From contig CAMNGM010000008.1 in NCBI GenBank assembly GCA_946538425.1, positions 1 through 36,025 on the forward strand: 36,025 bases of DNA, read 5' to 3'. A program made the translations under genes and the position numbers. Each line of letters begins with the position of its first letter. The stretch's first letter is position 1. The notes under the pieces were generated by a model, which was not told the origin of the DNA, made no database searches, and saw nothing but the letters and a program-made list of their open reading frames with translations. Of this stretch, positions 15,203 through 31,492 are shown piece by piece. This DNA is from an uncultured Bacteroidales bacterium (lineage in GTDB: Bacteria > Bacteroidota > Bacteroidia > Bacteroidales > UBA932).

Positions 15203-16029
15203 CGGACGGTCTGGATCAAACGGTACAACATGCTGACGAGAGAAATCTCCCAGGCGGGATACTTCCTGTAGCAGCGGTAATAATAAGCCATGCTCCGGAA
15301 CTGCATCCGGTCCATTTCCTTCCTCTTGTACGAGGAGCCGATGACGGCGCCGTGTTCATGGATGATGGTGACAGACGGACAGAACCAGCAACGCTTTCCG
15401 ATGGCGGACAGCCGCTCGCTGAGGATGGGTTCCTCCGCATACAGGAACGTGTTCTCATCGAAGCAGCCCGCCTCGAAAAACGCATCGGCCCGGACCATGA
15501 GGAAAGAGCCCATCAGCTTGTAATGATACCCCTCGGAAGCCTTTTCGGAATAATCCAGCCGGAACTTCTCCACCTTCCGTTCCAGGGAGAGGAAAGGGGT
15601 GAGAAGATACATCCACACATAGCGGTTCCACAGCCCCTGATAGGGCTCGGGACTCTGCCGACGGCCGTCCTTGCCCACGATGCAAGGGCCGATGGCTCCG
15701 ACATCGTCATGGCGGAAAAGCTCTTTGTAAAGCGTGTCGACGACATCGTCGGAGTGGAAACGCAGATCGTTGTTGCTGAACAGGATGGCATCCGGGTCAA
15801 CGTGCTCCCGAAGCCAACGGGCGCCCAGGTTGCATCCGGCGGCATACCCCTTGTTCTCGGCACGGAGGACAGTCGCGTCCGGAAGCCGTTCCTTCAGGTT
15901 GGAGTCTTGGCTGCCGCCATTGTCCACGACGACCAGGCGATACGGTATCCGGATCCGGGAGAGTTCCTCCCGGACAAAAGCGACCGTCCGGTCATCGGAA
16001 CGGAAACTGACGATGACAATTCCTAACAT
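15199..16029 (-). CDS. Glycosyltransferase family 2 (rhamnosyltransferase-like)
   Basis: MLGIVIVSFRSDDRTVAFV...LVVVDNGGSQDSN...RAENKGYAAGCNLGARW...ILFSNNDLRF; ATG overlaps the wzx stop. Confidence 0.9.
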   Translation of the reverse strand: MLGIVIVSFRSDDRTVAFVREELSRIRIPYRLVVVDNGGSQDSNLKERLPDATVLRAENKGYAAGCNLGARWLREHVDPDAILFSNNDLRFHSDDVVDTLYKELFRHDDVGAIGPCIVGKDGRRQSPEPYQGLWNRYVWMYLLTPFLSLERKVEKFRLDYSEKASEGYHYKLMGSFLMVRADAFFEAGCFDENTFLYAEEPILSERLSAIGKRCWFCPSVTIIHEHGAVIGSSYKRKEMDRMQFRSMAYYYRCYRKYPAWEISLVSMLYRLIQTVR

Positions 16030-17465
16030 GAAGCGAATACCTTCCGCCAAATTGAACGTATCCACAACGCCAGCGCACCGTCCTTGAAAAACAACAGGTT
16101 CACGACCAGCATATACAGGCCGGTGACGGCACCTTGACAACCGAGCCGCAAGAATGCATTTCCTACAGGCAGGAACAGGAGCAGGAGCGGAACCAGCGGC
16201 AGATGGAAAACAATCACCCGCACCAGATCGCCGAGCGGGAAGCGAAGCGACAGGTTGCGGGACACGGCGATCCAGGCGCACAGAAAAACGGACAGCTCGG
16301 ACACCACCCACACGATTGCGGATCCCTGCGCCAGCATGAATCTTACCAGCAGAAGATTCAGCAGGATGCCCACGCCGGCGCCAACCGCAGAATTGACGAA
16401 GACAGCCCGATCCATCTTCATCGGCATCATCACCTGGACCACCAGGATCTGTTCCATTCCGATGACAAGGATGAGCGGAGCCACGATGCGCATCGGGACC
16501 ACCGCCCCTTCATACCCCTTGCCGGACAGGATGCGGATTACGTCCCCGGCACCGACCAGCAAGAGAAGGATGACCGGTACGCCCACGATGAAAAGAATGC
16601 GGAAAGTCTTGGAGACCAACCCCAGGAATTCGTCTTTCCGGCCCTCGGACAGGACCGCACTCATCCGGGGAAGCATCACCGTCGTGAAGGCGGTGAACAG
16701 GGCGATGACCATCGAGAAAACCTTGGTGGCGCTCGTGTAATAACCCACTTGTACCGTATCGGAGACGAAACCGAGATATGTGACGTTGAAAGTGGTGTAC
16801 ATCGATGTCAAGAACATGTACAGCCCCATCGTGAAGAAGGGTCGGACATGCCTCGCCCAATCGACTTCCTGTTTTCTGAATGACACGAACCGACGGGCAT
16901 AAGACAGGTTGATGCCGGCGTTCAAGACCACCATCAGGGTGAGAAGCAGATAATAGACTGGATAATCCTCGGGCTTACGGACCAGAAGGAAAACACCGGC
17001 CACGTAGAGGAATTTCACGAGAATCGTCCGGTTGGTGATGTACTTGAATTCCTCCATTCCCTGGAAAAGCCAGTCCATGCAAAGGAAATTTGCCAGGATC
17101 TTCACGACACCGATCCAAAGCAGGCTCCGGTACTCAGCGAGGGCGGGGACGACGAATATGGCTGCCGCGAGCGCGACTGCCGCCAGACCGGAGGTCAAGC
17201 CGTTCAGCGCAATCAAGTCCGAGAAAACGCGGTTTCGAGCCTCCCGGTCCTCACGCACCGCCGCAATCTCCCGCACACCCACGATGGCGACACCCATCAT
17301 CGAGAACAGGATGAAATAGTTCACGATGCTGTCCACGAAGTTGCAGATACCGATGTTGGACACGCCGAGCACCCTGGACACATACGGATACGTGATCAGC
17401 GGGAACAGGTAGTTCGCCACCGTCAGGAGACCGTTGTAGAAGAAATTCTTCTTAATGCTGGGCAT
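16023..17465 (-). CDS. wzx: Polysaccharide flippase, oligosaccharide export (MOP/Wzx) family
   Basis: MPSIKKNFFYNGLLTVANYLFPLITYPYVSRVLGVSNIGICNFVDSIVNYFILFSMMGVAIVGVREIA; Wzx-type N-terminus and many TM segments. Confidence 0.95.
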   Translation of the reverse strand: MPSIKKNFFYNGLLTVANYLFPLITYPYVSRVLGVSNIGICNFVDSIVNYFILFSMMGVAIVGVREIAAVREDREARNRVFSDLIALNGLTSGLAAVALAAAIFVVPALAEYRSLLWIGVVKILANFLCMDWLFQGMEEFKYITNRTILVKFLYVAGVFLLVRKPEDYPVYYLLLTLMVVLNAGINLSYARRFVSFRKQEVDWARHVRPFFTMGLYMFLTSMYTTFNVTYLGFVSDTVQVGYYTSATKVFSMVIALFTAFTTVMLPRMSAVLSEGRKDEFLGLVSKTFRILFIVGVPVILLLLVGAGDVIRILSGKGYEGAVVPMRIVAPLILVIGMEQILVVQVMMPMKMDRAVFVNSAVGAGVGILLNLLLVRFMLAQGSAIVWVVSELSVFLCAWIAVSRNLSLRFPLGDLVRVIVFHLPLVPLLLLFLPVGNAFLRLGCQGAVTGLYMLVVNLLFFKDGALALWIRSIWRKVFASC

Positions 17466-17469
17466 CGGA

Positions 17470-18426
17470 TCAGAGGGTTGAAAGGATCTGCTGCATTTCC
17501 CGGACGCGGGCCGACGTGATGTGTCCGGAAAGATAACGCCGGTAACGGTCCATGTCCACGGGACGCCGTAAAAAGTCCGTCAAGACCTGTTCGAAAACAT
17601 CGTAAGAATCCACGCTGGGAGAGAAAGACCCAAGACAGTAATAATCCGTATCGGGATTGGGCCGATACCGCATCAGGACGTGGCAGCCCGCGCTCAGGTA
17701 TTCCAGGAAGCGGGGCGTCACCTGGCTGAAACCGTGCGTTTTTCCGTCAGGTTCGTCCAGACCGGGCGTTGCGTAAAGCCCCACCCGGCAGCGACGCATC
17801 AGGTCCATGAACTTGGAGTGGTCGTCCACTTCGCCGAGACAGGTTTCCGTTTGGTCATAGTACAGGAAACGGCCGTTTTCGATTCTCCGGTAGACATAGG
17901 TGCAGGGATGTTCGGCGACGAAACGCCGGAAGAAATCCCCAAGCACGGCGTCAGGCCGCCCCATCAGAGCCACGTCGTATTGCTTTTCAGGCAATTCGTC
18001 AGTCAGGATGCTGTCCGGCAGGGAAAGGGCCAGATGAAACAGGGGCAGACCGGTCCCCTGTTTCCGGAGGAACTCGTAAGCCTCGCGACTTGAGACAAAG
18101 ATGGCGGGGCAGGCACTGTATGAACGCACAAGTGAAGGCAGCGAAGGTTCCCGGAGGAAGAAATCAATCCAATAAGGGACTACCTGCGCCCGGTTGTAGA
18201 CATTATTCTCCGCCCTGGGTTCCATCTCCATAAGCAGCAGACACTTCTTGCCGGTGGGGACGGACCGGCGGCCCGGCAGGCGGCGGAAAAAAGCCTCTTC
18301 CAATCGGTTCCTGGGGACGAGCCGGATGCCCATCTCGCGCGAGAAGATGTCTTCCCACGCATAGACCAGATCGAAACTGACTCTCTTTTCCCACGCACGT
18401 TGCGTGAGGATGCCTTCCAACTTCAT
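17470..18426 (-). CDS. Glycosyltransferase (CgeB / Glyco_trans_1_2-like)
   Basis: YDVALMGRPDAVLGDFFRRF...GFSQVTPRFLEYLSAGCHVLMRY. Confidence 0.68.
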   Translation of the reverse strand: MKLEGILTQRAWEKRVSFDLVYAWEDIFSREMGIRLVPRNRLEEAFFRRLPGRRSVPTGKKCLLLMEMEPRAENNVYNRAQVVPYWIDFFLREPSLPSLVRSYSACPAIFVSSREAYEFLRKQGTGLPLFHLALSLPDSILTDELPEKQYDVALMGRPDAVLGDFFRRFVAEHPCTYVYRRIENGRFLYYDQTETCLGEVDDHSKFMDLMRRCRVGLYATPGLDEPDGKTHGFSQVTPRFLEYLSAGCHVLMRYRPNPDTDYYCLGSFSPSVDSYDVFEQVLTDFLRRPVDMDRYRRYLSGHITSARVREMQQILSTL

Positions 18427-18427
18427 C

Positions 18428-19675
18428 CTATAACCGGCTTGCCAGATCCAGGGCGGCTCCGGCTGCCACGTCCATGTTGTAATACTCCCACTCCGCGAAC
18501 CGTCCCGTCAAGTAGAAATCATTCGGAGAAAGACGCTCCTTCAGTTCCCGAACCACTCCCCGTGTCGCTTGCGTCTGGATCGGATAGGAACACGGTGTGT
18601 AGCAATGATCCAGATACTTGGGGTGCAGCGGGATACGCTTTAATTGGTCTTCGATTTCCTTCAAGGATACCTCGTCCGTGAACTCCACCGTGGCCGTAAG
18701 GCGCCCTGGAGCATTGTTGTTTATCGAGAAATTGCCCGTGCAAATGATCCGATGCGCATCATATTCCCCATCAGGCAAGTATATCCACGTATAAGGGACA
18801 GGGTCGATCTCGCAGAAAACCGACGTGGTCCCGTGGGAAAGGAGCGAGTGCAATTCCTTTTCCAGGCCATCGAGTGAGACACCCTCGACAAGCTCGGGAA
18901 TCCTCCGGACATTCCCCGTATAAACCACGATATCATACAGTTCATCGCCTATCCTCCACTTCCCGTCCCGATGAACAATCCTGTCAATGGAAGAACCGTA
19001 CCGGATATCCAGGCATTCTGCGAGCGTGTCGGCCAGGAACTGGGAACCACCTTGTCGGGGATACCAGAAAGACGCATGGACGAAAGCCTTTTCCTCCTGA
19101 TGCGAGAAGTTGTGGTAGAAGACATCTTCGGGTGAAGGCATCGGAAGTTTACCGGCCAACCAGTCCAGCGACACCTCCGTCAGGGGACGCCGCCAGATCT
19201 TCTCATTGTACGGACGGAAATAGAGATTGAAAAGAGTCTCCCCGAACGTTTGTTCGAGGAAGTCGGCAAAATGGGCGGAGCGGATTTCCTCCCGCTTAGC
19301 CATCATCGCGGCGAAATCACGGATGGAGGCTCGCTGAACGGCTTCGGGGAGTTGATACAGGTGATCTTCGACGGGATACCCCACGACCAATCCGCCAGGC
19401 ATCACGATACAAGAGTTCCGGTCCGCCTTGACAAAAGAGACGTCCCTGTTGAAAACACCCCAGAACCAGTCCAGGACATCCTGGCGACGCGAGTTGAAGA
19501 CATGGCCGCCACAGATGTGGAACAGGGATCCCTGTACTTCCCGGCACCGGATCAGGCCTCCGGGGCGGTTCTCCTTTTCATAGACCGTCACCCGGTAGCG
19601 GTCCTGCAGCGATCGGGCCACCACCAGACCGGAAATCCCGGCGCCGACCACGGCGGCTTTCTTCTTGCCTTCCAT
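18428..19675 (-). CDS. FAD-dependent NAD(P)-binding protein related to UDP-galactopyranose mutase / protoporphyrinogen oxidase-like enzymes
   Basis: AAVVGAGISGLVVARSLQDRYRVTVYEKENRPGGL Rossmann motif; GRFAEWEYYNMDVAAGAALDLA C-terminus. Confidence 0.82.
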   Translation of the reverse strand: MEGKKKAAVVGAGISGLVVARSLQDRYRVTVYEKENRPGGLIRCREVQGSLFHICGGHVFNSRRQDVLDWFWGVFNRDVSFVKADRNSCIVMPGGLVVGYPVEDHLYQLPEAVQRASIRDFAAMMAKREEIRSAHFADFLEQTFGETLFNLYFRPYNEKIWRRPLTEVSLDWLAGKLPMPSPEDVFYHNFSHQEEKAFVHASFWYPRQGGSQFLADTLAECLDIRYGSSIDRIVHRDGKWRIGDELYDIVVYTGNVRRIPELVEGVSLDGLEKELHSLLSHGTTSVFCEIDPVPYTWIYLPDGEYDAHRIICTGNFSINNNAPGRLTATVEFTDEVSLKEIEDQLKRIPLHPKYLDHCYTPCSYPIQTQATRGVVRELKERLSPNDFYLTGRFAEWEYYNMDVAAGAALDLASRL

Positions 19676-20878
19676 CTACCTCCCCTTATACATCTCCTCG
19701 TAATACTTCTGGTAATCCCCGCTGGTGACGTTGTCCAGCCAGGCCTGGTTGTCGAGGTACCAGCGGATGGTCTTCTCGATGCCTTCCTCGAACTGGAGGG
19801 AGGGTTCCCAGCCCAGTTCGCGCTGGAGCTTGGTGCTGTCGATGGCGTAGCGGAGGTCGTGGCCGGCGCGGTCGGTCACGTAGGTGACGAGGTCGTCGTC
19901 GGCCCCTTCCGGACGGCCCAGGAGGCGGTCCGTGACGCGGATGAGGGTCTTCACGATGTCGATGTTCTTCCACTCGTTGAAACCGCCGATGTTGTAGGTT
20001 TCGGCGACCTTCCCCTCATGGAAGATCAGGTCGATGGCCCGCGCGTGGTCCTCCACGTACAGCCAGTCGCGGACGTTCTCGCCCTTGCCGTACACGGGCA
20101 GCGGCTTGCGGTGCCGGATGTTGTTGACGAACAGCGGGATAAGCTTCTCCGGGAACTGGTAAGGCCCGTAGTTGTTGGAGCAGTTCGTGACGATGGTGGG
20201 CATTCCGTACGTGTCGTGGAACGCGCGCACGAAGTGGTCGCTGGAGGCCTTGGCCGCGCTGTACGGGCTGTGCGGCTGGTACTTGAGGTCCTCCGTGAAG
20301 AACTTCTCGCCGTAGGCCAGGTGATGCTCGCCGCTGGACGCCTTCGTCGTGAACGGCGGCTCGATCCCCTCCGGATGGGTCATCTCCAGGGCGCCGTACA
20401 CTTCGTCGGTGGAGATGTGGTAGAAGCGGCAGGGGATGGATTCCTTCGCTCCGCTCGGAATGACACCCTTGTCATCTCGACCAAGCGAAGCGCGTGGAGA
20501 GATCTTCCACCCCATCGGCTCCCAGTACGCCTTGGCGGCCTGGAGCATCGACAGCGTGCCGATGACATTGGTCTGCGCGAAGGTGAAGGGATCCTTGATG
20601 GAGCGGTCCACATGGGACTCCGCCGCGAGGTGGATCACCCCGTCCACCTGCTCCTCCTGCATCAGGGAGAGCACGCCCTCGAAGTCGCAGATGTCCATCT
20701 TGACGAACCGGTAGTTTGGCCGGTCCTCGATGTCCTTGAGGTTCGCGAGATTGCCCGCGTAGGTGAGCTTGTCCAGGTTGATGATCCGGTAGTCCGGATA
20801 CTTGTTCACGAACAGGCGCACGACATGGCTGCCGATGAAGCCGGCGCCGCCGGTGATGAGGATGGTTCTACTTTTCAT
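19676..20878 (-). CDS. rmlB: dTDP-glucose 4,6-dehydratase carrying a repeat-derived in-frame insertion
   Basis: MKSRTILITGGAGFIGSHVVRLFVNKYPDYRIINLDKLTYAGN...RFYHISTDEVYGALEMTHPEG...SPYSAAKASSDHF; start assigned at MKSRTIL instead of the 460-aa track start. Confidence 0.96.
   Translation of the reverse strand: MKSRTILITGGAGFIGSHVVRLFVNKYPDYRIINLDKLTYAGNLANLKDIEDRPNYRFVKMDICDFEGVLSLMQEEQVDGVIHLAAESHVDRSIKDPFTFAQTNVIGTLSMLQAAKAYWEPMGWKISPRASLGRDDKGVIPSGAKESIPCRFYHISTDEVYGALEMTHPEGIEPPFTTKASSGEHHLAYGEKFFTEDLKYQPHSPYSAAKASSDHFVRAFHDTYGMPTIVTNCSNNYGPYQFPEKLIPLFVNNIRHRKPLPVYGKGENVRDWLYVEDHARAIDLIFHEGKVAETYNIGGFNEWKNIDIVKTLIRVTDRLLGRPEGADDDLVTYVTDRAGHDLRYAIDSTKLQRELGWEPSLQFEEGIEKTIRWYLDNQAWLDNVTSGDYQKYYEEMYKGR
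20439..20504. repeat. Composite palindromic REP/REPIN-like repeat inside rmlB
   Basis: GATTCCTTCGCTCCGCTCGGAATGAC (20439-20464) - accctt - GTCATCTCGACCAAGCGAAGCGCGTGGAGAGATC (20471-20504); imperfect inverted arms meeting at GAATGAC/GTCATCTC. Confidence 0.88.
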
Positions 20879-21404
20879 ATAGGAAGGGATGATGTTTGTC
20901 TCTTTCGGAAAGGATGATGTCGGCGGCCGGAATGCGCCAGTCGATGGCGAGGGTCGGGTCGTTCCAGGCGTAGCCGCCTTCGGACGCCGGACAGTAGAAG
21001 TTGTCGCACTTATACTGGAACACGACTTCCTCGGACAGGACGACGAACCCATGGGCAAAACCCCGCGGGATGAACATCATCCGGTGGTTCTCCCCGGTCA
21101 GTTCCTCGGCATGCCACTTCCCCCAGGTAGGCGATCCTTCCCGCAGGTCCACGGCCACGTCCAGCACAGAGCCCCGCACTACGCGCACGAGTTTCGCCTG
21201 GGCGGACTCCCCTTTCTGGTAATGCAGCCCGCGAAGCACGCCGTAGCGCGACTTGCTCTCATTGTCCTGGACAAAGTGCACGGGTCCCACTTTCTCGGTG
21301 AATTCCCGTTCATTGAAACTCTCGAAGAAATAGCCCCGCTCGTCACCGAACACTTTCGGTTCGATGAGGACGAGCCCTTCGATGCCGGTCTCGATTACAT
21401 TCAT
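20868..21404 (-). CDS. rmlC: dTDP-4-dehydrorhamnose 3,5-epimerase
   Basis: GLVLIEPKVFGDERGYFFESFNEREF...LRGLHYQKGESAQAKLVRVVRGSVLDVAVDLREGSPTWGKW. Confidence 0.97.
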   Translation of the reverse strand: MNVIETGIEGLVLIEPKVFGDERGYFFESFNEREFTEKVGPVHFVQDNESKSRYGVLRGLHYQKGESAQAKLVRVVRGSVLDVAVDLREGSPTWGKWHAEELTGENHRMMFIPRGFAHGFVVLSEEVVFQYKCDNFYCPASEGGYAWNDPTLAIDWRIPAADIILSERDKHHPFLYEK

Positions 21405-22273
21405 AGTCTGTCAATACATTTTTTCAGTGATTCATACCAGTGCGGGACCTGCACCCCGAACGTCTCCTTGACCTTGGTCTTGTCCAGCACGGAAAAGTGC
21501 GGGCGGCGGACCTTGGAAGGGAACTCGTCGGAATGGCAAGGCCTGATGTCGCAGGTGTTTCCGCTCAGGTCCCGGATGGCGCAGGCGAAGTCGAACCAGG
21601 AGCACACCCCCTCGTTGGAGAAATGGTAGATGCCCCCCTTGTCCATCTTCCGCCCGGAAATGACCTGGCAGATGAGCCGGGCCAGGTCCCAGGCATAGGT
21701 CGGCGACCCCACCTGGTCGAAGACGACCTTCAGCGCCGGGCGTTCCGCCGTGAGCTGCCGCATCGTCTTCACGAAATTCTTCCCGTACGGCGAATACAGC
21801 CATGCCGTGCGGAAGATCTGCCAGGAGCAGCCGGATTCCTGCACGGCCTGCTCGCCCTGCAGTTTCGTCGCCCCGTACACGCCGTTCGGATGCACCGGCC
21901 AGTCCTCCCGGCACGGCAGGGCGATGTCGCCCTGGAACACATAGTCCGTGGAAATGTGGATCAGGTGCGCGCCCCGCTCGGCCGCCACGCCGGCCAGGAT
22001 GCCCGGGGCGAGGTGGTTCAGCAGGTCCGCCATCTGCAAGTCGTCCTCGGCTTTGTCCACGTTCGTGTAGGCGGCGCAGTTCACGATCACGTCCACCTGC
22101 TCTGAATCGCAGATGAGCCGGACCGCATCGCGGTTGGTGATGTCCAGATAGACCGTGTCCACCCCGGGAACCGAGGTGACGTCCGTGAAAATATAGCGGT
22201 CGGGAACTCCCGCGGAAACATTCCGCAGCTCGGTTCCCAGTTGGCCGTTGGCGCCCGTGACGAGTATGTTCAT
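21401..22273 (-). CDS. rmlD: dTDP-4-dehydrorhamnose reductase
   Basis: MNILVTGANGQLGTELRN...VIVNCAAYTNVDKAEDD...HISTDYVFQG...YGATKLQGEQAV. Confidence 0.97.
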   Translation of the reverse strand: MNILVTGANGQLGTELRNVSAGVPDRYIFTDVTSVPGVDTVYLDITNRDAVRLICDSEQVDVIVNCAAYTNVDKAEDDLQMADLLNHLAPGILAGVAAERGAHLIHISTDYVFQGDIALPCREDWPVHPNGVYGATKLQGEQAVQESGCSWQIFRTAWLYSPYGKNFVKTMRQLTAERPALKVVFDQVGSPTYAWDLARLICQVISGRKMDKGGIYHFSNEGVCSWFDFACAIRDLSGNTCDIRPCHSDEFPSKVRRPHFSVLDKTKVKETFGVQVPHWYESLKKCIDRL

Positions 22274-22365
22274 AAAAGCATATATTTATATTCCTCCGCC
22301 CATTTCGAATGGACGGAGCAGGAAGACCGGCCCCGTTTTCCTGTCCAGGAATCCGGATGTCCGGC

Positions 22366-23088
22366 CTATATCTCGTCGTCGCCCTCCATCAGGGAGGCCA
22401 GTTTGACGACGGTTTCTTTCTTCAGCTCCTTGGCCGTATACTGGGTCTCGAGGGCCCGGAAACGGTGGCAGTCGGAACCCACCATCCGATACCAGCCCTT
22501 GTCCAGGAGATACTGCGCCCGCTGCCGGACGGATTCCCCGTAAAAGCCGACGATGGACGGGAGGTTCAACTGAAGGAAACATCCCATATTATGAAGCTCC
22601 CGGTAGTCGCTCTGGTCCATATAGCGATAGCGCTCCGGATGGGCGATCAGCGGGCGGTACCCCGCCTTGAAGATCTGATCCAGCACATTCCACAGATTGA
22701 TGGGAGGCGCGATGGCCGAGGTCTCCACCAGGACGACCTCGCTTCCGTGCTCCAGAAGATCTTTCCGGGAAAGACGCTCCTCAAAGACGGTATCGATCAT
22801 ATACTCCGCCGCCAGATTCAGCTTCAGGCCTCCGTCATAGACCGCCTTCAGTTCTTCGAACCGTGAACGGAGCTCTTCCGTGGTATTGGGGACGTCCTCC
22901 ATCACGTGCGGCGTAAACCAGACCTCGGAGACTCCCTGCTCCTCCAGATACCGGAGGATCGCCAGGGAGTCTTCCTGCGTCTTCACGCCATCATCCAGCC
23001 CATAGAGGATGTGGGAGTGCTGGTCGACGGCCCCTTTCAAAAGTCCGCTTTCCAGAATGGAGCGGCGCCGGTTGAACAGGCCGAACAT
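22366..23088 (-). CDS. CpsB/YwqE-type PHP-family tyrosine-protein phosphatase
   Basis: AVDQHSHILYGLDDGVKTQEDSLAILRYLEEQGV...LIAHPERYRYM...GSDCHR; follows the BY-kinase gene. Confidence 0.92.
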   Translation of the reverse strand: MFGLFNRRRSILESGLLKGAVDQHSHILYGLDDGVKTQEDSLAILRYLEEQGVSEVWFTPHVMEDVPNTTEELRSRFEELKAVYDGGLKLNLAAEYMIDTVFEERLSRKDLLEHGSEVVLVETSAIAPPINLWNVLDQIFKAGYRPLIAHPERYRYMDQSDYRELHNMGCFLQLNLPSIVGFYGESVRQRAQYLLDKGWYRMVGSDCHRFRALETQYTAKELKKETVVKLASLMEGDDEI

Positions 23089-25520
23089 CAGGATTTCTTC
23101 TCGTCGGATTCGTTACCGTACCCGTAACCGTACCCATAACCGTACCCATAACCGTAACCGTACCCGTGGCGGCCGCTGTAGGAGTCGACAGCGTTCAGGA
23201 TGATGGCCATCCGGTTGTACTTGCCTTCGTTGTACATCTCCTCGACGGTGGGCAGGGCGCGCTTGTCGAACAGACCGGCACGGAGGACGAAGATGGTGAT
23301 GTCGGCGTGCGGGGCCACGATGCTGGTATCGGCCACGAGGTCGATCGGAGGGCAGTCCATAAACACGTAATCATACCGCTCTTTCATCGCCTGAATGAGC
23401 ATCGGGAGGCGTTCGGAAACCAGCAATTCGGCCGGGTTCGGCGGGATGGATCCCACCGGAAGGAGGTCGAGATTGTCCTGCACCTTGACGACGTGCTCGA
23501 ACGGATCGTCATACTTGCCATTCAAGTAGGAGGCGACACCGGTGGAGTTCTTGCCGAGCGACTTGGAAAGGGTGGCCTTGCGGAGGTCGAGGTCCAGGAT
23601 CACCACGCGCTTGTTGCCCTTGAGCGCCATCGATGCGGCCAGGTTCATCATCGTGAAGGTCTTGCCGGCATTCGGGTTGAACGAGGTGATCATGATGGCC
23701 TGCGTCTCGGTTTCGCGGTGGATCATCAGGTCCAGGTTCGTACGCAGGACGCGGAAAGCCTCGTTCATCGAGTCGCGCTTGCCGTGCTCCACGATGATCC
23801 GGGTATTCTTGTTGTCGAAGCGGTTGAGCCGGAGACGTTCCCAGTAATTGGCGGTGACGCCCATCTGCGGCAGCTCGGCCAGGAACGGCACGGAAAGCTT
23901 GCCGAGGTCATTGCGGCCCTTGACGGTGGTGTCGAGCACTTTCATCACATAGAAGACGGCGAACGGAATGCCGAAACCCAGGATGAGGGCGATCAGCAGG
24001 ATCATCATCTTGTTCGGGGCGATCGGGGCGTTGCTGCCGGTCGCGCTCTGGATCAAGCGGGTGTTGCCGACGGTCAGGAGGCCCTGGAGCTCGTTTTCTT
24101 CCCGCTTCTGGAGGAGGAAGATGTACAGCTGCTCCTTCACTTTCTGCTGACGCTCGATGGAAAGGAGTTCCAGCTGCTGTCCGGACGTGGAGGACAGGCG
24201 GCCGAGGATGGCGTTCTCCTGCGCCTCGATCTTGTTCACCTGCAGCTGCAGGGTGGAGATGAGGTTGTCGATGGACCGGTTCACGGCGAGCTTGTACATT
24301 TCCAGGCTCTTGTTCAGGTCCTGGACATACGGGTTGTTCTCGCTGGAAAGGTTCAGGGAGCGGTCACGCTCGAGGAGGGCCGTGTTGTACTCGCGGATCT
24401 GCGCCTCGATGTTCGCGCTGGAAAGGCCGGAGTTCGCCGGCATCAGGTCGTTCACGTGGGCGGGATCGTTGATGAACTGCTTGATCATCTTGGCGATCGC
24501 CAGCTGGTTGGATGCCTCGAAGCCCTGGGCCGAATAGGCGCTGGACTGCTGCATATAGGCGGTGCCGGCCTGCTGGATGTCCGTGATGTTGTGGCTCTGC
24601 TTGTAGTCCTTGATGTCCTGCTCGATGCCGCCGAGCTCCCGCTCGATGACATTCAGGCGGTCGTTGATGAACAGGGAGGTGTTGCGCACCGACTGGTTCT
24701 TGTTCTCCACCCATTCCTCGTTGTAGATGTCCAGAAGCGTGCCGAGGACCGCTTCGGCGCGGGCCGGGAACTGGTCCTTCTGGGAGAGCACGACGACGGA
24801 GGACTGCTTGGAAGAGAGACCGGAGGAAAGCCGGCTGCAGTAGGACTTGGCCCGGGTGGCGGCATTCACCCAGGAGACCGTGATGTCGTGGGACCACTTG
24901 TCGTAGTTGACGGTCGGATAGATGACGATCTTCCCCACCGGGGTCTCCACCGTATCGGAGAGATGGCCGCTGAGTTTGTAGCCCTTGAACTCCTGGGCAC
25001 CGACGAAGAAGTCGCGGATCACATATGTGCTGTCCTTGCCCTTGCTGATATGAAAGGAGAAGCTGGACGCGGCGACGTTCTCGGGGGCGCGCATCTCGAT
25101 CGGCGAGTTCTTGTACAGTTCGCGGACGCGGAGGAACTGGTTGTCGATGTACGCGGTCTCCAGCCCCAGCCGCGTGACCACACGCTGCATCAGGTCCGGC
25201 GCGGCGAAGGCTTCGATCTCGTTGTCCACATTGGTACCGGACGTGTACCGGCGGGCGGTTCCGGCAAAGGAGGTGAGGTCGCGCATCATCGAGTTCTGCG
25301 AGTCCTCGTCCACGATGACTTTTTCCGTGCGGCTGTACGTCTTGGGCGTCTTGTAAAGATAGAAGCCGGCGGCGAAGAGCGCTGCCAGGATGCAGAAGAC
25401 GTACCACCACTTATGATCCCATACGAGGGCCCACAGGTCGGCCAGCTGCAGGGATTGCTCTTCTTCGTTACCAGCCTGCCCGGTATAGATGGGGATGTTG
25501 TTCTGATTGTTCTCAGCCAT
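23088..25520 (-). CDS. wzc: Wzc-type polysaccharide co-polymerase / BY-family tyrosine autokinase
   Basis: N-terminal Wzz domain with TM (LWALVWDHKWWYVFCILAALFAAGFYLYKTP); Walker A FNPNAGKTFTMMNL, A' VVILDLDLRKATLS, Walker B DYVFMDCPPIDL; C-terminal (GY)8 cluster. Confidence 0.96.
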   Translation of the reverse strand: MAENNQNNIPIYTGQAGNEEEQSLQLADLWALVWDHKWWYVFCILAALFAAGFYLYKTPKTYSRTEKVIVDEDSQNSMMRDLTSFAGTARRYTSGTNVDNEIEAFAAPDLMQRVVTRLGLETAYIDNQFLRVRELYKNSPIEMRAPENVAASSFSFHISKGKDSTYVIRDFFVGAQEFKGYKLSGHLSDTVETPVGKIVIYPTVNYDKWSHDITVSWVNAATRAKSYCSRLSSGLSSKQSSVVVLSQKDQFPARAEAVLGTLLDIYNEEWVENKNQSVRNTSLFINDRLNVIERELGGIEQDIKDYKQSHNITDIQQAGTAYMQQSSAYSAQGFEASNQLAIAKMIKQFINDPAHVNDLMPANSGLSSANIEAQIREYNTALLERDRSLNLSSENNPYVQDLNKSLEMYKLAVNRSIDNLISTLQLQVNKIEAQENAILGRLSSTSGQQLELLSIERQQKVKEQLYIFLLQKREENELQGLLTVGNTRLIQSATGSNAPIAPNKMMILLIALILGFGIPFAVFYVMKVLDTTVKGRNDLGKLSVPFLAELPQMGVTANYWERLRLNRFDNKNTRIIVEHGKRDSMNEAFRVLRTNLDLMIHRETETQAIMITSFNPNAGKTFTMMNLAASMALKGNKRVVILDLDLRKATLSKSLGKNSTGVASYLNGKYDDPFEHVVKVQDNLDLLPVGSIPPNPAELLVSERLPMLIQAMKERYDYVFMDCPPIDLVADTSIVAPHADITIFVLRAGLFDKRALPTVEEMYNEGKYNRMAIILNAVDSYSGRHGYGYGYGYGYGYGYGYGNESDEKKS
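23118..23165 (-). repeat. Hexanucleotide tandem array encoding (Gly-Tyr)8 at the Wzc C-terminus
   Basis: Minus strand GGGTAC GGTTAC GGTTAT GGGTAC GGTTAT GGGTAC GGTTAC GGGTAC. Confidence 0.95.
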
Positions 25521-25537
25521 ATTCTAATCTGTTTTCA

Positions 25538-26371
25538 TTACGGGTTCGCCCGCTTGCCCATTTGGGTCAAAGCGATGATGAAATTGATCGTCGTCATCGA
25601 AATACTCGCCAGGGAGATCCAGAAACTGCCGGACTTGAAGTAGTTCTCGTTGATCTCGCCCTGGCCGGCCCGGACCGTGGAAGGCGTCACGTACACGACA
25701 TCGTTCTGCTGGAGGTAGTAGGCCGGAGAATCGAAAATGCCCGAATGGGTGAGGTCCAGCTCGTAGATCTGGCGCTTGCCGTTCTGCTCGCGGATGACCT
25801 GGACGTTGTCGCGCCGGCCGTAGATGGTGAGGTCGCGGGCCAGGGCAAGGGCCTGGAGGATGGTGATCTTGTCGCCGGTGACGCTGTAGGTGCCCGGAGC
25901 GGCCACTTCACCGAGGACGGAAATCTTGAAATTCAGGAACTCGACCGTCACGACGGCATCCTTCAGGAGACCGCTGTCGGCGAGACGGTCCTTGATCAGG
26001 TCCTGCAACTGCCAGCGGTTCAGGCCGGCGACGTGCAGTTCGCCGAGGGAGGGGAAGTTGATGTCGCCCTCATTGTCGACCACGTAGCCCGTGATGCGCT
26101 GGCTGGCGCCGGAGGCGGACAATTCCGACCCGGTGTAGAACGTGGAGACGGAAAGATTGAACGGGGTGGCCATCCGAGGATCGCGGCTCGTGACAATGAT
26201 GGACAACTGGTCCTGGGGCTGGATGATGATGCCCCGGTTCTCCTTCATCGTCATGGCGGTTTCACCGCTCACATCCTGCAGGTAGTTAATTTTTTTGTAC
26301 GTTTCCGGGCTGCAGGAATGCAGACCCAAGAGCAGGCTGGCGGAACAGAAAATTGCAAATATCTTTTTCAT
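25538..26371 (-). CDS. wza: Polysaccharide export outer-membrane lipoprotein
   Basis: MKKIFAIFCSASLLLGLHSCSPETYKKINYLQDV...IIQPQDQLSIIVTSRDP...VLGEVAAPGTYSVTGDKITILQALALA. The track start at 26380 is a TTG codon. Confidence 0.95.
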   Translation of the reverse strand: MKKIFAIFCSASLLLGLHSCSPETYKKINYLQDVSGETAMTMKENRGIIIQPQDQLSIIVTSRDPRMATPFNLSVSTFYTGSELSASGASQRITGYVVDNEGDINFPSLGELHVAGLNRWQLQDLIKDRLADSGLLKDAVVTVEFLNFKISVLGEVAAPGTYSVTGDKITILQALALARDLTIYGRRDNVQVIREQNGKRQIYELDLTHSGIFDSPAYYLQQNDVVYVTPSTVRAGQGEINENYFKSGSFWISLASISMTTINFIIALTQMGKRANP

Positions 26372-26396
26372 ACGTTTCAAATGTCGGATAATCGTG

Positions 26397-26428: not shown

Positions 26429-26446
26429 TTATTGGGCGGAATGTAC

Positions 26447-26454
26447 TATCTTTG
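26447..26454 (+). promoter_or_regulatory. Candidate -7 box of rnhA
   Basis: TATCTTTG matches TAnnTTTG, 7 nt before ATG 26462; no clear -33 TTTG at standard spacing. Confidence 0.45.
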
Positions 26455-26461
26455 TAGGACC

Positions 26462-26950
26462 ATGGAGGAAAAACGACCGCCCATATTCCTGTACACCGAC
26501 GGGGCCGCCAGCGGCAACCCCGGCCCGGGCGGGTTCGGCGTCGTCCTCGTGTGCGCGGGCCGGAGGAAGGAGATTTCCGGCGGATACCGCCTCACCACCA
26601 ACAACCGGATGGAACTCCTCGCCGTCATCAAGGGCCTGGAGGCAATCAAGTGGGAGAACGCGGAAGTCCACGTCTGGAGCGACTCCTCCTACGTGGTCAA
26701 GGCCGTCAACGAGGGCTGGCTCGACACCTGGAAACGCACCGGCTTCGCCAAGAAGAAGAACGTGGACCTGTGGCTCCGCTTCGACGCCGTCTACCGCCGC
26801 CACCGCGTCTCCTTCAACTGGCTCAAGGGCCACGCCGGCCACCCCGAGAACGAGCGCTGCGACACCCTGGCCGTGGCCGCATACCAAAGCGGGGAAAACC
26901 TCCTGGAAGACACCGGATATATCACTGAAAATCAAGGATTGAACATATGA
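26462..26950 (+). CDS. rnhA: Ribonuclease HI
   Basis: PIFLYTDGAASGNPGPGGFGVVL...TTNNRMELLAVIKGLEAI...VWSDSSYVVKAVNEGW...FNWLKGHAGHPENERCDTLA; start taken as MEEKRP. Confidence 0.96.
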   Translation: MEEKRPPIFLYTDGAASGNPGPGGFGVVLVCAGRRKEISGGYRLTTNNRMELLAVIKGLEAIKWENAEVHVWSDSSYVVKAVNEGWLDTWKRTGFAKKKNVDLWLRFDAVYRRHRVSFNWLKGHAGHPENERCDTLAVAAYQSGENLLEDTGYITENQGLNI

Positions 26951-27990
26951 ACAAGCCCAAACTCGTCGTCGGCATCACCCAGGGTGACAGCAACGGCATC
27001 GGATATGAAGTGCTCATCAAGTCCCTGGCGGACTCCCGCATCCTGGACTCCTTCACCCCCGTGGTGTACGGATCGTCCAAGATCTTCGGCTTCTACCGCA
27101 AGCAGCTCCACGAGATCGAGCAGATGGACACCTACGTCATCCATACGGCGAAGGACGTCCACGTCAAGCGCATCAACATCGTCAACTGCCTGCCGGAGAA
27201 CTTCTATGCGGAGCCCGGCCAGCCCAGCCCTGACTCCGCCAAGGCGGCGATGCTGTCCCTGTCGGCGGCCGTGCAGGACCTCAAGGACGGCTACATCGAC
27301 GTCCTGGTGACCGGCCCGATCAACAAGCGGGCGATGACCGCCCAGGGTTTCGGCTTCACCGGCCACACCGAGTACCTCCAGGACGCCTTCGGGGCGAAGG
27401 AGATCGCGATGATCATGGTCTCGCCCCAGCTGCGGATCGCCGTGGCCACCGGCCACATCCCGCTGAAGGACGTCCCGGCGTCCCTCACCCAGGAGGGCAT
27501 CCTCTCGAAGCTCCGCCTGATGAACGAGTCCCTGGAGCGCGACTTCGCCATCCCCAAGCCGAAAATCGCCGTCCTGGGCCTGAACCCGCACTGCGGTGAC
27601 GGCGGCCTGCTGGGCGACGAAGAGAAGGAAATCATCCTCCCGGCCGTCCTCCAGGCGCAGGAGGAGGGCATCCTCGCCTTCGGCCCCTACTCCCCCGACG
27701 GCTTCTTCGGACTCGGGAACTACAGCCGCTTCGACGCCACCCTGGCGATGTACCACGACCAGGGCCTGGCCCCGTTCAAGGCCCTCGCCTTCGCCGATGG
27801 CGTGAACTACACGGCCGGCCTCCCGGTCGTCCGCACCTCGCCCGACCACGGCACCGCCTACGACATGGCGGGCCGCGACGAGGCCGATCCGCATTCGATG
27901 CTCCACGCCATCTACACGGCGATCGACATCTTCAACAACCGGCTCGCCTACGACGAGCTGCACAGCGGGAAAATGAGACTGGAGCGCTGA
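26947..27990 (+). CDS. pdxA: 4-hydroxythreonine-4-phosphate dehydrogenase (PdxA)
   Basis: LVVGITQGDSNGIGYEV...VLVTGPINKRAM...FTGHTEYL...VATGHIPLKDV...LGLNPHCGDGGLLG...AMYHDQGLAPFKAL...RTSPDHGTAYDMAG. Confidence 0.97.
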   Translation: MNKPKLVVGITQGDSNGIGYEVLIKSLADSRILDSFTPVVYGSSKIFGFYRKQLHEIEQMDTYVIHTAKDVHVKRINIVNCLPENFYAEPGQPSPDSAKAAMLSLSAAVQDLKDGYIDVLVTGPINKRAMTAQGFGFTGHTEYLQDAFGAKEIAMIMVSPQLRIAVATGHIPLKDVPASLTQEGILSKLRLMNESLERDFAIPKPKIAVLGLNPHCGDGGLLGDEEKEIILPAVLQAQEEGILAFGPYSPDGFFGLGNYSRFDATLAMYHDQGLAPFKALAFADGVNYTAGLPVVRTSPDHGTAYDMAGRDEADPHSMLHAIYTAIDIFNNRLAYDELHSGKMRLER

Positions 27991-27991
27991 T

Positions 27992-29632
27992 TCAGGCCAG
28001 CCGGTCGATCCGGCAGGTCCTTTCGCACAGCTGCGCGATCCTTTCGCGGTGGGTAATGAAGATCATCGTCTTGCCCGCCGCTTTTTTCGTGAGGTTGTCC
28101 ATCAGCTTCTGCTCGGTCTCGGGGTCGAGGGAGGAGCTGAACTCGTCCAGGAGGAGGATGGAGCCCGGGCGCAGAAGGCCGCGGGCGATGGCGATGCGCT
28201 GCGCCTGGCCTTCGCTGAGGCCGGCGCCGCCTTCGCCGCAGCGGGTTTCCAGCCCGTCCGGCAGGCTGAACACGAAATCGGCCACGGCCGTTTCCAGGGC
28301 CGCTCGCATCTCCTCCTCAGTCGCCTCCGGATTGCCCATCAGGAGGTTTTCGCGGACGGAGCCGCTCAGAAGCGTGTTGCCCTGCGGGACATAGACGAGG
28401 TTGCAGCGGGTGGCGGCGGAAGCCGGCACTTCCTGCGTCCCGTCATACAGGACCACACGGCCGCCGACCGGCTTCAGGAGGGCGAGCATCAGCCGGATGA
28501 GCGTACTCTTGCCCGACCCGGTCTCGCCCACGATGGCGGTCCGGGAAAGCGGCGGAAAGTCGAAGGTCAAACCTTTCAGGATCATCCGTTTGCCGTCCGG
28601 ATAACGGTAATCAAGACCCTCCACGCGGACGCCGGCGGGGCCGGCGAGCTTCACCGGTTGGCCCACCGCCTCCTTGGGGGCATCCTCCATCTCCATAAGC
28701 CGGTCGACGGACGTGGTGGAATAGATGAGGGACGGAATCTGGCGGGTCAGGTTCACGAGCGGGCGCTGGACCTGCCCCACGAGCTGCAGGAACGCCGTCA
28801 TCACGCCGAAGGTCAGGGAACCCCGCGAGATGCCGTACACGCCCCACAGGAACGCGGCGATGTAGCCGAAGGAGAAAGCGGCGCCCACCATCGCCCGGGC
28901 GATGACATTGAACCGCGTACGCTCTTTAATCTGGCCGTATTCCCGGTCCTGGAGGTCGTCAAGGCGGTCTTCCATCCGGCCCTCGTTCTCCATCGACTGG
29001 ATCACCATCCGATGCTGGAGACTTTCCTGGAGGTGGCTCTGGACCTCGCTCTCGGTCTCGCGGATCCCGCGGGTCATCTCCCGCAGACGACGGACGAACA
29101 GCCGGCTGAACAGGATGAAGAGCGGGGTGATGAGCACCAGCAGCGCGGCGAGCCGCCATTCCATCGTGCAAAGGAACACGATGGCGGCCACCAGTTGGAC
29201 CAGGGTGGTGAAAATCTGCGGGAAATCGGAGACGATGACGTTCGTGACGGTGCTCACATCGGACTCGAGTCGGTTCACCGTATCCCCCGTATGCCGCTTC
29301 TCCTTCCCCAGCCATTCGGCATACAGGAGGTTCGAATAGAGTCCTTTCCGGATGATGAAGTTCATCTTGGAGTTCGTCAGGTTCTCCACCCGCACGTTGA
29401 CGGCGGAGACCACGATCCGGAGGACGACGGTGGCGAGGACGCAGGCCGTATACAGGCCCAGGCTCCCGGCCTCCACGCCGGTGGCGATGTCCACCAGCCG
29501 CTTGCACAGGAAGATGAACAGGAGGTTCAGGCCCACGGTCAACGAGCCCAGCAGGATGTTCACGAGGATCGCCCCCCGCGCCCCCACGGAGTGCGACCAG
29601 AGCCAGCGCATATATTTAAGTATTCCTTTCAT
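27992..29632 (-). CDS. ABC transporter, fused permease/ATP-binding (type-1 exporter)
   Basis: N-terminal TM domain; Walker A VGETGSGKSTLI; signature LSEGQAQRIAIARG; Walker B ILLLDEFSSSLD. Confidence 0.95.
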   Translation of the reverse strand: MKGILKYMRWLWSHSVGARGAILVNILLGSLTVGLNLLFIFLCKRLVDIATGVEAGSLGLYTACVLATVVLRIVVSAVNVRVENLTNSKMNFIIRKGLYSNLLYAEWLGKEKRHTGDTVNRLESDVSTVTNVIVSDFPQIFTTLVQLVAAIVFLCTMEWRLAALLVLITPLFILFSRLFVRRLREMTRGIRETESEVQSHLQESLQHRMVIQSMENEGRMEDRLDDLQDREYGQIKERTRFNVIARAMVGAAFSFGYIAAFLWGVYGISRGSLTFGVMTAFLQLVGQVQRPLVNLTRQIPSLIYSTTSVDRLMEMEDAPKEAVGQPVKLAGPAGVRVEGLDYRYPDGKRMILKGLTFDFPPLSRTAIVGETGSGKSTLIRLMLALLKPVGGRVVLYDGTQEVPASAATRCNLVYVPQGNTLLSGSVRENLLMGNPEATEEEMRAALETAVADFVFSLPDGLETRCGEGGAGLSEGQAQRIAIARGLLRPGSILLLDEFSSSLDPETEQKLMDNLTKKAAGKTMIFITHRERIAQLCERTCRIDRLA

Positions 29633-30765
29633 TCTCCCTTAGCAAGTCTTTGCAAACCATAACCGAAGGCCCCTAAAAAGAAGCGGATGGATTCCTGCGG
29701 GAACACCCGGAAATGCCGCAGCCGGTCCGCCACCACCAGGCGCCAGAAGGAATGGACCTTCCGGACCAGATAGGGCTCCCGGCCCCTGGAACGGTCCACG
29801 TTTTTTCCGAAATTGCCGCAGCAGCGGATGTACTGCCAGATCCGGGCGTTCTTCGCCGGATCGGGCGCCGCCGCGAGGGGAAGCTTCTCCGCCGGGCAGC
29901 CCAGATACTCCTGCGCGAAACCGGTGAACACCTTCCACAGACGGAGGAGTCCGAGCGCCTGCAGGCGGTTCTCCAGGATGACGGGATGGATGTCCCGCTT
30001 ATGGACCGAGACGAACGTCATCCAGTCCACCAGCTGCCGCAATCCCACGCCGCCGGACCAATAGTGCTGGAGGAAGTGGACGAAGATGTAAACCGCATTG
30101 AAACCCGCCTCCGGCACCGGAATCCCGGCCCCGTCCAGCGTGACCTCGGGGAAGGGGCGTCCATCGAACTGTTCCTCAAGCAACGCTGCAAGTTTTCCGT
30201 CCAATTGTCTGGACATCAGCGTACTGATACTTCCGTGAATCTCGACTTCGATACTGCGGAAATGCATTCCCTGGTGCCAGATGCCCGCCGCTTCCTCCTC
30301 GATCCGCGTCGCCTTGGGCAGCAGGACCGCTTTCGCCGCCTCATAGGAGGACGGGAGAAGCAGGAGGTCGATGTCCCCGGGCTGGCGGCGCTCCGGATCC
30401 GGATAGTCCACGGCCAGGGCCTGGCCCTTGACCAGGACGACCGGGATGCCGGCGAGCGCCCGGAAAAGCTTCGGGATGAAGGCGTCCAGCACGCGGTTCC
30501 GCTTGGCGGTCGCCATCAGGTCCCCCAGGAAAGGGTCCAGGCGTTCGGGTTCCGCCGGAAGCAGTTCGCCGGGAAGCCGGTTGACGCCATCGGTCACCAG
30601 GGGGACGACCGTTTGCGCATAGGCCAGGCGGTACAAGGCCTCCCAGTCCGTACCGGAGGCAAACGGCGCCCGATCCGGGACCTCGTTCCAAAGCCCGGAG
30701 CGCAGCAGCGCAAAAAACTGACCGTCAACTGCCTGTCCTACTCGGCGATTCCGATTTCCTTCCAT
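29629..30765 (-). CDS. Nucleotidyltransferase family protein (NTP_transf_5-like, PF14907)
   Basis: IPVVLVKGQALAVDYPDPERRQPGDIDLLLLP followed by RSIEVEIHGSIS, an acidic GDxDL nucleotidyltransferase pattern; ATGA overlap with the ABC gene. GTG start at 30774 possible. Confidence 0.8.
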   Translation of the reverse strand: MEGNRNRRVGQAVDGQFFALLRSGLWNEVPDRAPFASGTDWEALYRLAYAQTVVPLVTDGVNRLPGELLPAEPERLDPFLGDLMATAKRNRVLDAFIPKLFRALAGIPVVLVKGQALAVDYPDPERRQPGDIDLLLLPSSYEAAKAVLLPKATRIEEEAAGIWHQGMHFRSIEVEIHGSISTLMSRQLDGKLAALLEEQFDGRPFPEVTLDGAGIPVPEAGFNAVYIFVHFLQHYWSGGVGLRQLVDWMTFVSVHKRDIHPVILENRLQALGLLRLWKVFTGFAQEYLGCPAEKLPLAAAPDPAKNARIWQYIRCCGNFGKNVDRSRGREPYLVRKVHSFWRLVVADRLRHFRVFPQESIRFFLGAFGYGLQRLAKGE

Positions 30766-31004
30766 TGGGCGCACAGGGCTTCGGCGTCCTTCAGGGCCCG
30801 TTCGCGATCCACCTCATATTCCTGCGTGAGCAGGTCGGCGAGTCGCTCCGGGGTGAAGTCCTCCCCCGCCACGGCCTTGAACAGGTAGGCGGCGGTATCG
30901 TTGAGGCTCACGAGTTTGGAGAAATTGACATTGGCCGTCCCCTCGCCGGAGACGACATTCTGTCCGCAAATGGTCCTGAGGACGAATCCTTCCTTGATTT
31001 TCAT
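30738..31004 (-). CDS. PqqD family protein (RRE-like fold)
   Basis: 88 aa: MKIKEGFVLRTICGQNVVSGEGTANVNFSKLVSLNDTAAYLFKAVAGEDFTPERLADLLTQEYEVDRERALKDAEALCAQWKEIGIAE, matching the PqqD pattern (PF05402). Confidence 0.85.
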   Translation of the reverse strand: MKIKEGFVLRTICGQNVVSGEGTANVNFSKLVSLNDTAAYLFKAVAGEDFTPERLADLLTQEYEVDRERALKDAEALCAQWKEIGIAE

Positions 31005-31492
31005 ATGTTTCTATTCTCTTTGATCCACTGTCGGTTCCACGGCAGGTGCCGGTAGATGAACAGGATATACCGGCGCACAGGGCGCAGCCACTGCCAAAAA
31101 TGTACCAGCCGCAGCTGCCCGGGAGCATACGGGTCCACGGGGCGCTTCCCGCCGCGGAGAATCTTCACCGCCTTGGCGAGAACCTGGTCCCGGCGCACGT
31201 GCTCGTGGTTTTTCGGGACTCCGTCGCCCATGATGTCCACCGCGTCCCCGTCGATGGAAAGGATGCGGTGCATCACGTACCGGCCGCCCTCGCGGGGCCC
31301 TACGCGGAACAGGACGATGTCATCGGCCTTCAGGTCCGCGCCGGCCTTCTCCAGGACGACGAGGTCCTTGCCGCCGCGGATGAACGGGAGCATGCTGTAG
31401 CCCTTGACGGGAATGGTCACCCGCTTTCCCTGTTCCAGCACCCGCAGGACGTCGGCAAAGAACGTTTCGTTGTCGATGATCATCTTTTCCAT
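31001..31492 (-). CDS. S24/S26-family (signal-peptidase-like) serine peptidase
   Basis: VTIPVKGYSMLPFIRGGKDLVVL...DDIVLFRV...RYVMHRILSIDGD...GDGVPKNHE; Ser in GYSM and His in VMHRI. Confidence 0.85.
   Translation of the reverse strand: MEKMIIDNETFFADVLRVLEQGKRVTIPVKGYSMLPFIRGGKDLVVLEKAGADLKADDIVLFRVGPREGGRYVMHRILSIDGDAVDIMGDGVPKNHEHVRRDQVLAKAVKILRGGKRPVDPYAPGQLRLVHFWQWLRPVRRYILFIYRHLPWNRQWIKENRNI

Follow-up and report, generated by a model that had tools for sequence, protein, structure and literature searches.

An operon of an uncultured Bacteroidales bacterium resembling the enzyme core of linear polyphosphorylated peptide pathways, with candidate precursors encoded elsewhere

Linear polyphosphorylated peptides (LPPs) are ribosomally synthesized and post-translationally modified peptides (RiPPs) that were described in 2026 by Popov et al. 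from Bacillota; the paper calls the system restricted to this phylum, and Bacteroidota are unmentioned in its main text (PMC13381572). Here we study four genes at positions 27992-31492 of a 36,025-nucleotide stretch of DNA, called the window below, from an uncultured Bacteroidales bacterium (GenBank assembly GCA_946538425.1, contig CAMNGM010000008.1, positions 1 to 36,025). We consider it likely that these genes encode the core enzymes of an LPP-like RiPP pathway with precursors encoded elsewhere; a family of short YxxP-leader peptides with an acidic core is the most likely substrate. New in this reading are a system outside Bacillota, dispersed multicopy precursors and precursor-lipoprotein pairs. 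No paper on a Bacteroidota version of LPP was found in the literature searched, which did not include most subscription papers or any preprints.

Described systems and the four-gene operon

The present system shares with LPP an SpI-like Ser-His-Asp peptidase, a discrete RiPP recognition element (RRE), a nucleoside triphosphate (NTP) transferase, an MsbA-like exporter and, in relatives of the window's genome, an HprK-like kinase. Also shared are a YxxP leader, a conserved Glu near the cleavage site with a conserved Ser after it, the lack of a described lasso cyclase for the core, and a capsule neighbourhood; LPP clusters in Bacilli are likewise reported within capsule loci (PMC13381572). Differences are found in the host, which is Bacillota for LPP and Bacteroidota and Fibrobacterota here, and in the precursors: LPP clusters contain one to three (1-3) of them, while here they are many, mostly unlinked and paired with lipoprotein genes. 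The kinase is sometimes unlinked here, unlike in LPP.

Phosphorylated lasso peptides of the paeninodin/pseudomycoidin type have in common with our system an HprK-like kinase, a PF14907-type nucleotidyltransferase, a PqqD-like B1 RRE and an ATP-binding cassette (ABC) exporter (PMC8498205). However, they have a B2 protease and a lasso cyclase where an S26-type peptidase is found here, and paeninodins carry WxxP instead of YxxP. In pseudomycoidin, hexoses are reportedly attached to the phosphate by the PF14907-type enzyme (PMC8498205); by analogy with this peptide and with LPP, phosphorylation would come first and the PF14907 enzyme would then act on or after the phosphate. By sequence, the closest solved relative of the window PqqD is the fusilassin/fuscanodin B1 RRE, TfuB1 (PDB 6jx3, E=5e-5), with which it shares the conserved LNxTA and an Asp in the third helix. 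TfuB1 works with a lasso B2 protease and a macrolactam cyclase; neither is in the four-gene operon, and no genome-wide search for a cyclase was made.

The four open reading frames (ORFs) at 27992-31492 overlap and form one operon:

31001-31492, minus strand: S26/S24-type leader peptidase (archaeal/SipW-like, Ser-His-Asp), LppS-like, 163 aa
30738-31004, minus strand: discrete RRE (PqqD, PF05402), LppB-like, 88 aa
29629-30774 (GTG start, 381 aa) or 29629-30765 (ATG start, 378 aa), minus strand: NTP_transf_5 nucleotidyltransferase (PF14907), LppN-like
27992-29632, minus strand: type-1 ABC exporter with membrane and ATPase domain (PF00664, PF00005), LppD-like, 546 aa

ATGA overlaps are seen at the S26/PqqD and NTP/ABC junctions, and PqqD and the NTP transferase overlap by 28 bp if the ATG start is used. 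An earlier note, made from the letters of the window, had described four overlapping minus-strand genes, and the same ORFs, strand and junctions were found. Its family assignments also held when profiles were run: PqqD (E=1.5e-13), PF14907 (E=5e-39) and the exporter (ABC_membrane 2e-39, ABC_tran 5e-23) are above the Pfam cut-off, and the S26 assignment is genuine but below it (NCBIfam signal peptidase I E=1e-7; Pfam PF10502 0.0015). No C39 peptidase domain was matched by Pfam in the exporter. S26-PqqD-ABC, with or without PF14907, is kept together in most of the 40 relatives examined, so the grouping is not due to chance.

In the peptidase S33, H75 and D90 are invariant in 13 relatives and, judged from residue types and not from an alignment with LppS, they are alike in kind to S29/H68/D93 of LppS. 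Its AlphaFold2 model (predicted local distance difference test, pLDDT, 86) has LexA and SpsB as best Foldseek matches (E 0.002-0.01), which is the S24/S26 fold. In PqqD, N35 and D73 are invariant in 14 relatives and alike in kind to N33/D70 of LppB, with a spacing that matches that pair; this Asn and Asp would be expected to hold the YxxP leader. A PDB sequence search with the window PqqD matched TfuB1 alone and did not recover LppB.

The PF14907 enzyme has invariant GDxD and ExH motifs, H233, H237 and D250. Its model (pLDDT 87) resembles ANT(2'')-Ia, LnuA, TM1012 and, more weakly, FKRP. FKRP transfers ribitol phosphate. Given the resemblance to ANT(2'')-Ia, LnuA and weakly FKRP, the enzyme may transfer a nucleotide or a sugar phosphate.

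An HprK-like kinase belongs to the set, although it is not visible from the window alone. We used 150 genomes of the window's own family, the window's genome (G000) being 56% complete. A PqqD homologue is present in 59 of the 150, and the neighbourhoods of 40 of these loci contain S26 (30 loci), PqqD (38), ABC (33), PF14907 (16) and, at 33 loci, an HprK-like kinase about 300 aa long. Searched genome-wide, the kinase is found in 58 family genomes, of which 57 are PqqD-positive; it is thus near-obligate (57/59) and lies mostly in the same operon as the cassette. The label HprK-like is based on the P-loop GxSGTGKST, weak Pfam matches and gene context. At one locus (L055, 8337-9848, plus strand, G004) a single 503-aa ORF combines the kinase with the S26 peptidase, a fusion that supports joint action of the two. 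PF14907 is present in 53 family genomes, 51 of them PqqD-positive, and is therefore often unlinked; in some genomes with a cassette (e.g. G015 and G028) no PF14907 was detected. Three genomes (G130, G114, G092) have 5-6 PF14907 genes each, well beyond the need of the cassette. The kinase set also occurs in named genomes, among them those of Prevotella, Segatella baroniae and Fibrobacter succinogenes.

The YxxP peptides

A scan for small intergenic ORFs near cassettes gave short peptides with Y-x-x-P, an alternating hydrophobic/acidic run and a short Gly/Asp/Glu-rich tail. From these we built profiles, A1 and later A3, with a match threshold of E<=0.1. The peptides follow the cassette: a match is found in 40/59 PqqD-positive but only 5/91 PqqD-negative family genomes (P=1.5e-16), and when all seed-contributing genomes are excluded the numbers are 13/32 and 5/91 (P=1e-5). 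Further, 295 genomes of the order, nearly all from other families, were searched for kinase and peptide. In the other families a strong kinase occurs together with a YxxP peptide in 5 genomes (0.4 expected), the kinase only in 9, the peptide only in 4 and neither in 273 (P=1.3e-5).

Peptide genes inside the operon carry weight independent of these counts. In another family the YxxP gene lies 38 bp upstream of kinase-S26-NTP-ABC (L185), and at L186 the order is peptide-lipoprotein-kinase-S26-NTP-ABC. At Prevotella and Fibrobacter loci (L206-L208, L217, L236, L237, L241, L242, L249, L250) the gene directly precedes the NTP transferase or the kinase. A single profile for every lineage was dropped, as A3, with seeds from one family, matched peptides in 10 of 80 named kinase loci. 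The leaders of Prevotella and Fibrobacter differ and were found with a regular expression, which gave 28 matches, some clearly spurious, against 7 in reversed ORFs. For seven YxxP peptides NCBIfam assigned no family and gave one weak lasso match.

The leader consensus of 56 peptides is Y1xxP4x[IVM]6E[VI]8[VIT]9[ED]10[VILM]11x[VLI]13E14xG16F17A18xS20, with Glu14 in 49 and Ser20 in 44 of them. The tail beyond position 20 contains 27% Asp+Glu, 15% Gly, 5% Trp and 2% Lys+Arg. In LPP, cleavage of the leader YxxPxVLxHQxIxFET follows T-1, with the phosphorylated Ser at +3 (PMC13381572). If Glu14 is aligned with Glu-2 of LPP, a cut is predicted after position 15, with Ser at +5; it may instead fall nearer Ser20.

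The small-ORF scan and two profiles gave no precursor-like ORF in the window, in agreement with the earlier note, which saw no precursor gene nearby. Its suggestion that the substrate may be encoded elsewhere is supported by the six YxxP peptide genes of the window's genome, all on contigs other than the window's:

C64: YxxP peptide MKKEYTKPEMRAVDLSLETTFCLS..
C10: YxxP peptide ..SYETPAVRVVDTRLEVNFLQS..
C12: YxxP peptide MEKEYLTPAVRVVDLKLDASFCLS..
C2: YxxP peptide MKKQYLEPEVRISYVGFEVNFLTS..
C118: YxxP peptide ..QYVEPALRVLDIRFEQALLQT..
C3: YxxP peptide ..DYQTPSLRLIDTNLEYNLLAS..

The first five were among the seeds of the last profile, while the C3 peptide was not and scored E=4e-4 with it. As a family, the peptides show the traits of LPP precursors: a YxxP leader, conserved Glu and Ser and a variable C terminus. 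The idea of a precursor-less or unconventional system was not borne out. The broader view of the note, a RiPP-like pathway that combines an RRE with a nucleotidyltransferase known from lasso peptide clusters, is supported.

Each of the six genes is located 3-13 bp upstream of a lipoprotein-like ORF. In general, the close downstream ORF is lipoprotein-like for 37/44 YxxP peptides, compared with 58/330 ordinary genes used as control (P=2e-18). Two of the six partners have recognizable domains: that of the C12 peptide matches Omp28 and, weakly, fimbrillin-like proteins, and that of the C118 peptide (L184, 300-2795, minus strand) carries a DNA/RNA non-specific endonuclease domain at its C terminus (PF01223, E=1.5e-27). 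At L057 and L059 (G149, G118) tandem pairs of YxxP peptide and FISUMP (Fib_succ_major) lipoprotein lie directly beside the cassette.

In the window a capsule/exopolysaccharide locus (13946-26380) adjoins the cassette. It also contains CpsB/CapC, RmlD, a nucleotide-sugar dehydratase, a flippase and a weak Wzy match:

23088-25520: Wzc-like protein (Wzz, GNVR, AAA), capsule locus
25538-26380: Poly_export/SLBB protein, capsule locus
26432-26950 and 26947-27990, plus strand: two ORFs between capsule locus and cassette

Weighing of the alternatives

A number of observations weigh against an LPP-like pathway. After YxxP the leader reads x[IV]EVVEVxVExGFAxS here and xVLxHQxIxFETxxS in LPP, and the conserved Ser is one residue farther from Tyr. 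The Pfam matches of the kinase are below cut-off (Hpr_kinase_C 0.005, PEPCK_ATP 3e-4), and at E<=1e-5 no HprK-like kinase is found in the window or in its incomplete genome. Further, 19/59 PqqD-positive genomes have no YxxP peptide at the profile threshold, for which leader divergence from lineage to lineage is probably part of the reason, and of the five PqqD-negative genomes with a peptide two are 99% complete (G022, G052). The system of G052 looks decaying, since its PF14907 is broken in two pieces (G052:C21:116622-117379) and PqqD is absent while the peptide is kept; this leaves G022 unexplained. It should be kept in mind that the Fisher P values given above ignore genome kinship and so overstate independence. 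Finally, the lipoprotein gene is the best-supported neighbour of the peptide gene, and the peptides might therefore serve the lipoprotein and not the cassette. Given the different leader consensus and placement of precursors, and with the kinase unproven for the window's genome, we file the system as LPP-like and not as LPP.

The last of these points can be made into a full alternative, in which the peptides belong to the adjacent lipoproteins, e.g. as small assembly or regulatory peptides, and the cassette is merely co-inherited and acts on some other substrate, for instance a capsule-linked protein. The strong lipoprotein pairing, the peptide-positive genomes without cassette and the frequent location of cassettes near polysaccharide genes would all fit. 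However, in three lineages the peptide is operonic with kinase or NTP transferase genes with no lipoprotein in between, the association persists in families not used as seeds, and YxxP is a known RRE-binding motif (PMC13381572), which makes this alternative improbable in our view. We give hardly more credit to a window cassette that is decaying or kinase-free, and only trims and exports or is inactive. That no kinase was found in G000 and the decaying neighbour G052 speak for it. Against it, all four genes are intact with translational overlaps, six peptide genes remain intact, the genome is 56% complete, and in a congener (G085) kinase and cassette are on separate contigs (C3 and C7). Equally unlikely as the main modification is that the PF14907 enzyme nucleotidylates the peptide (AMP or GMP); the earlier note had named nucleotidylation as one possibility. 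The nucleotidyltransferase fold, the GDxD motif and the structural neighbours ANT(2'')-Ia and LnuA agree with it, while the cassette genomes without detected PF14907, the near-obligate kinase and the hexose transfer reported for pseudomycoidin do not; in addition, deletion of LppN left the LPP products unchanged in a heterologous host (PMC13381572).

By far the least probable alternative is a remnant of lasso-peptide tailoring (RRE, NTP transferase, exporter) instead of a separate linear-peptide pathway. The RRE does resemble lasso B1, and the tailoring of paeninodin and pseudomycoidin involves PF14907 and HprK-like kinases (PMC8498205). In contrast, the transglutaminase-like lasso B2 peptidase family PF13471 is absent from the window's genome and over cut-off in 1/150 family genomes, a signal-peptidase-type enzyme takes the place of B2, and the cores are acidic, poor in Lys/Arg and without a lasso-like ring pattern. 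Lasso peptides were ruled out as a class because B2 is absent; the genome-wide search was made for B2 and not for the Asn-synthetase-like macrolactam cyclase. The sole over-cutoff B2 (G090:C1:11658-15608) has a PF14907 match, in an open frame of 899 aa, some 3 kb away, and a genuine lasso cluster may lie here next to an LPP-like system.

A proposed pathway and its meaning

The LPP-like pathway that we prefer can be outlined as follows. Gene content, conserved residues, co-occurrence and linkage are directly shown; we infer phosphorylation and removal of the leader from LPP, where experimental support for binding, phosphorylation and cleavage is confined to Paenibacillus (PMC13381572). As in Bacillota, the PqqD RRE would capture the YxxP leader, and the conserved Ser after it would be phosphorylated by an HprK-like kinase whose gene lies elsewhere or was lost from the incomplete assembly. 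We guess that the PF14907 enzyme then acts at or after the phosphate, where it would add a further group that could be a nucleotide or a sugar phosphate. An S26-type peptidase recruited by the RRE would, again following LPP, remove the leader near the conserved Glu, and the ABC exporter would release a linear acidic peptide. A further guess is that the exported peptide acts with the lipoprotein encoded beside its gene.

More tentatively, small unannotated proteins of Bacteroidota and Fibrobacterota could be a large class of RiPP precursors that is processed in trans by one LPP-like core. Each modified peptide would then be paired with its own surface lipoprotein (fimbrillin-like, Omp28, endonuclease or others), e.g. 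as a phospho- or phosphoglyco-peptide linking the lipoprotein to the capsule or another surface partner. We regard this as possible but doubtful.

For the biology of these bacteria, a pathway thought to be limited to Bacillota would be extended to the dominant Gram-negative phylum of the gut and to Fibrobacter, and small hypothetical proteins without an NCBIfam name gain a testable role. The layout is one in which a single core appears to serve many unlinked precursors. The coupling of each precursor with a lipoprotein gene hints at a surface function, which can be tested in the culturable Segatella baroniae and Fibrobacter succinogenes.

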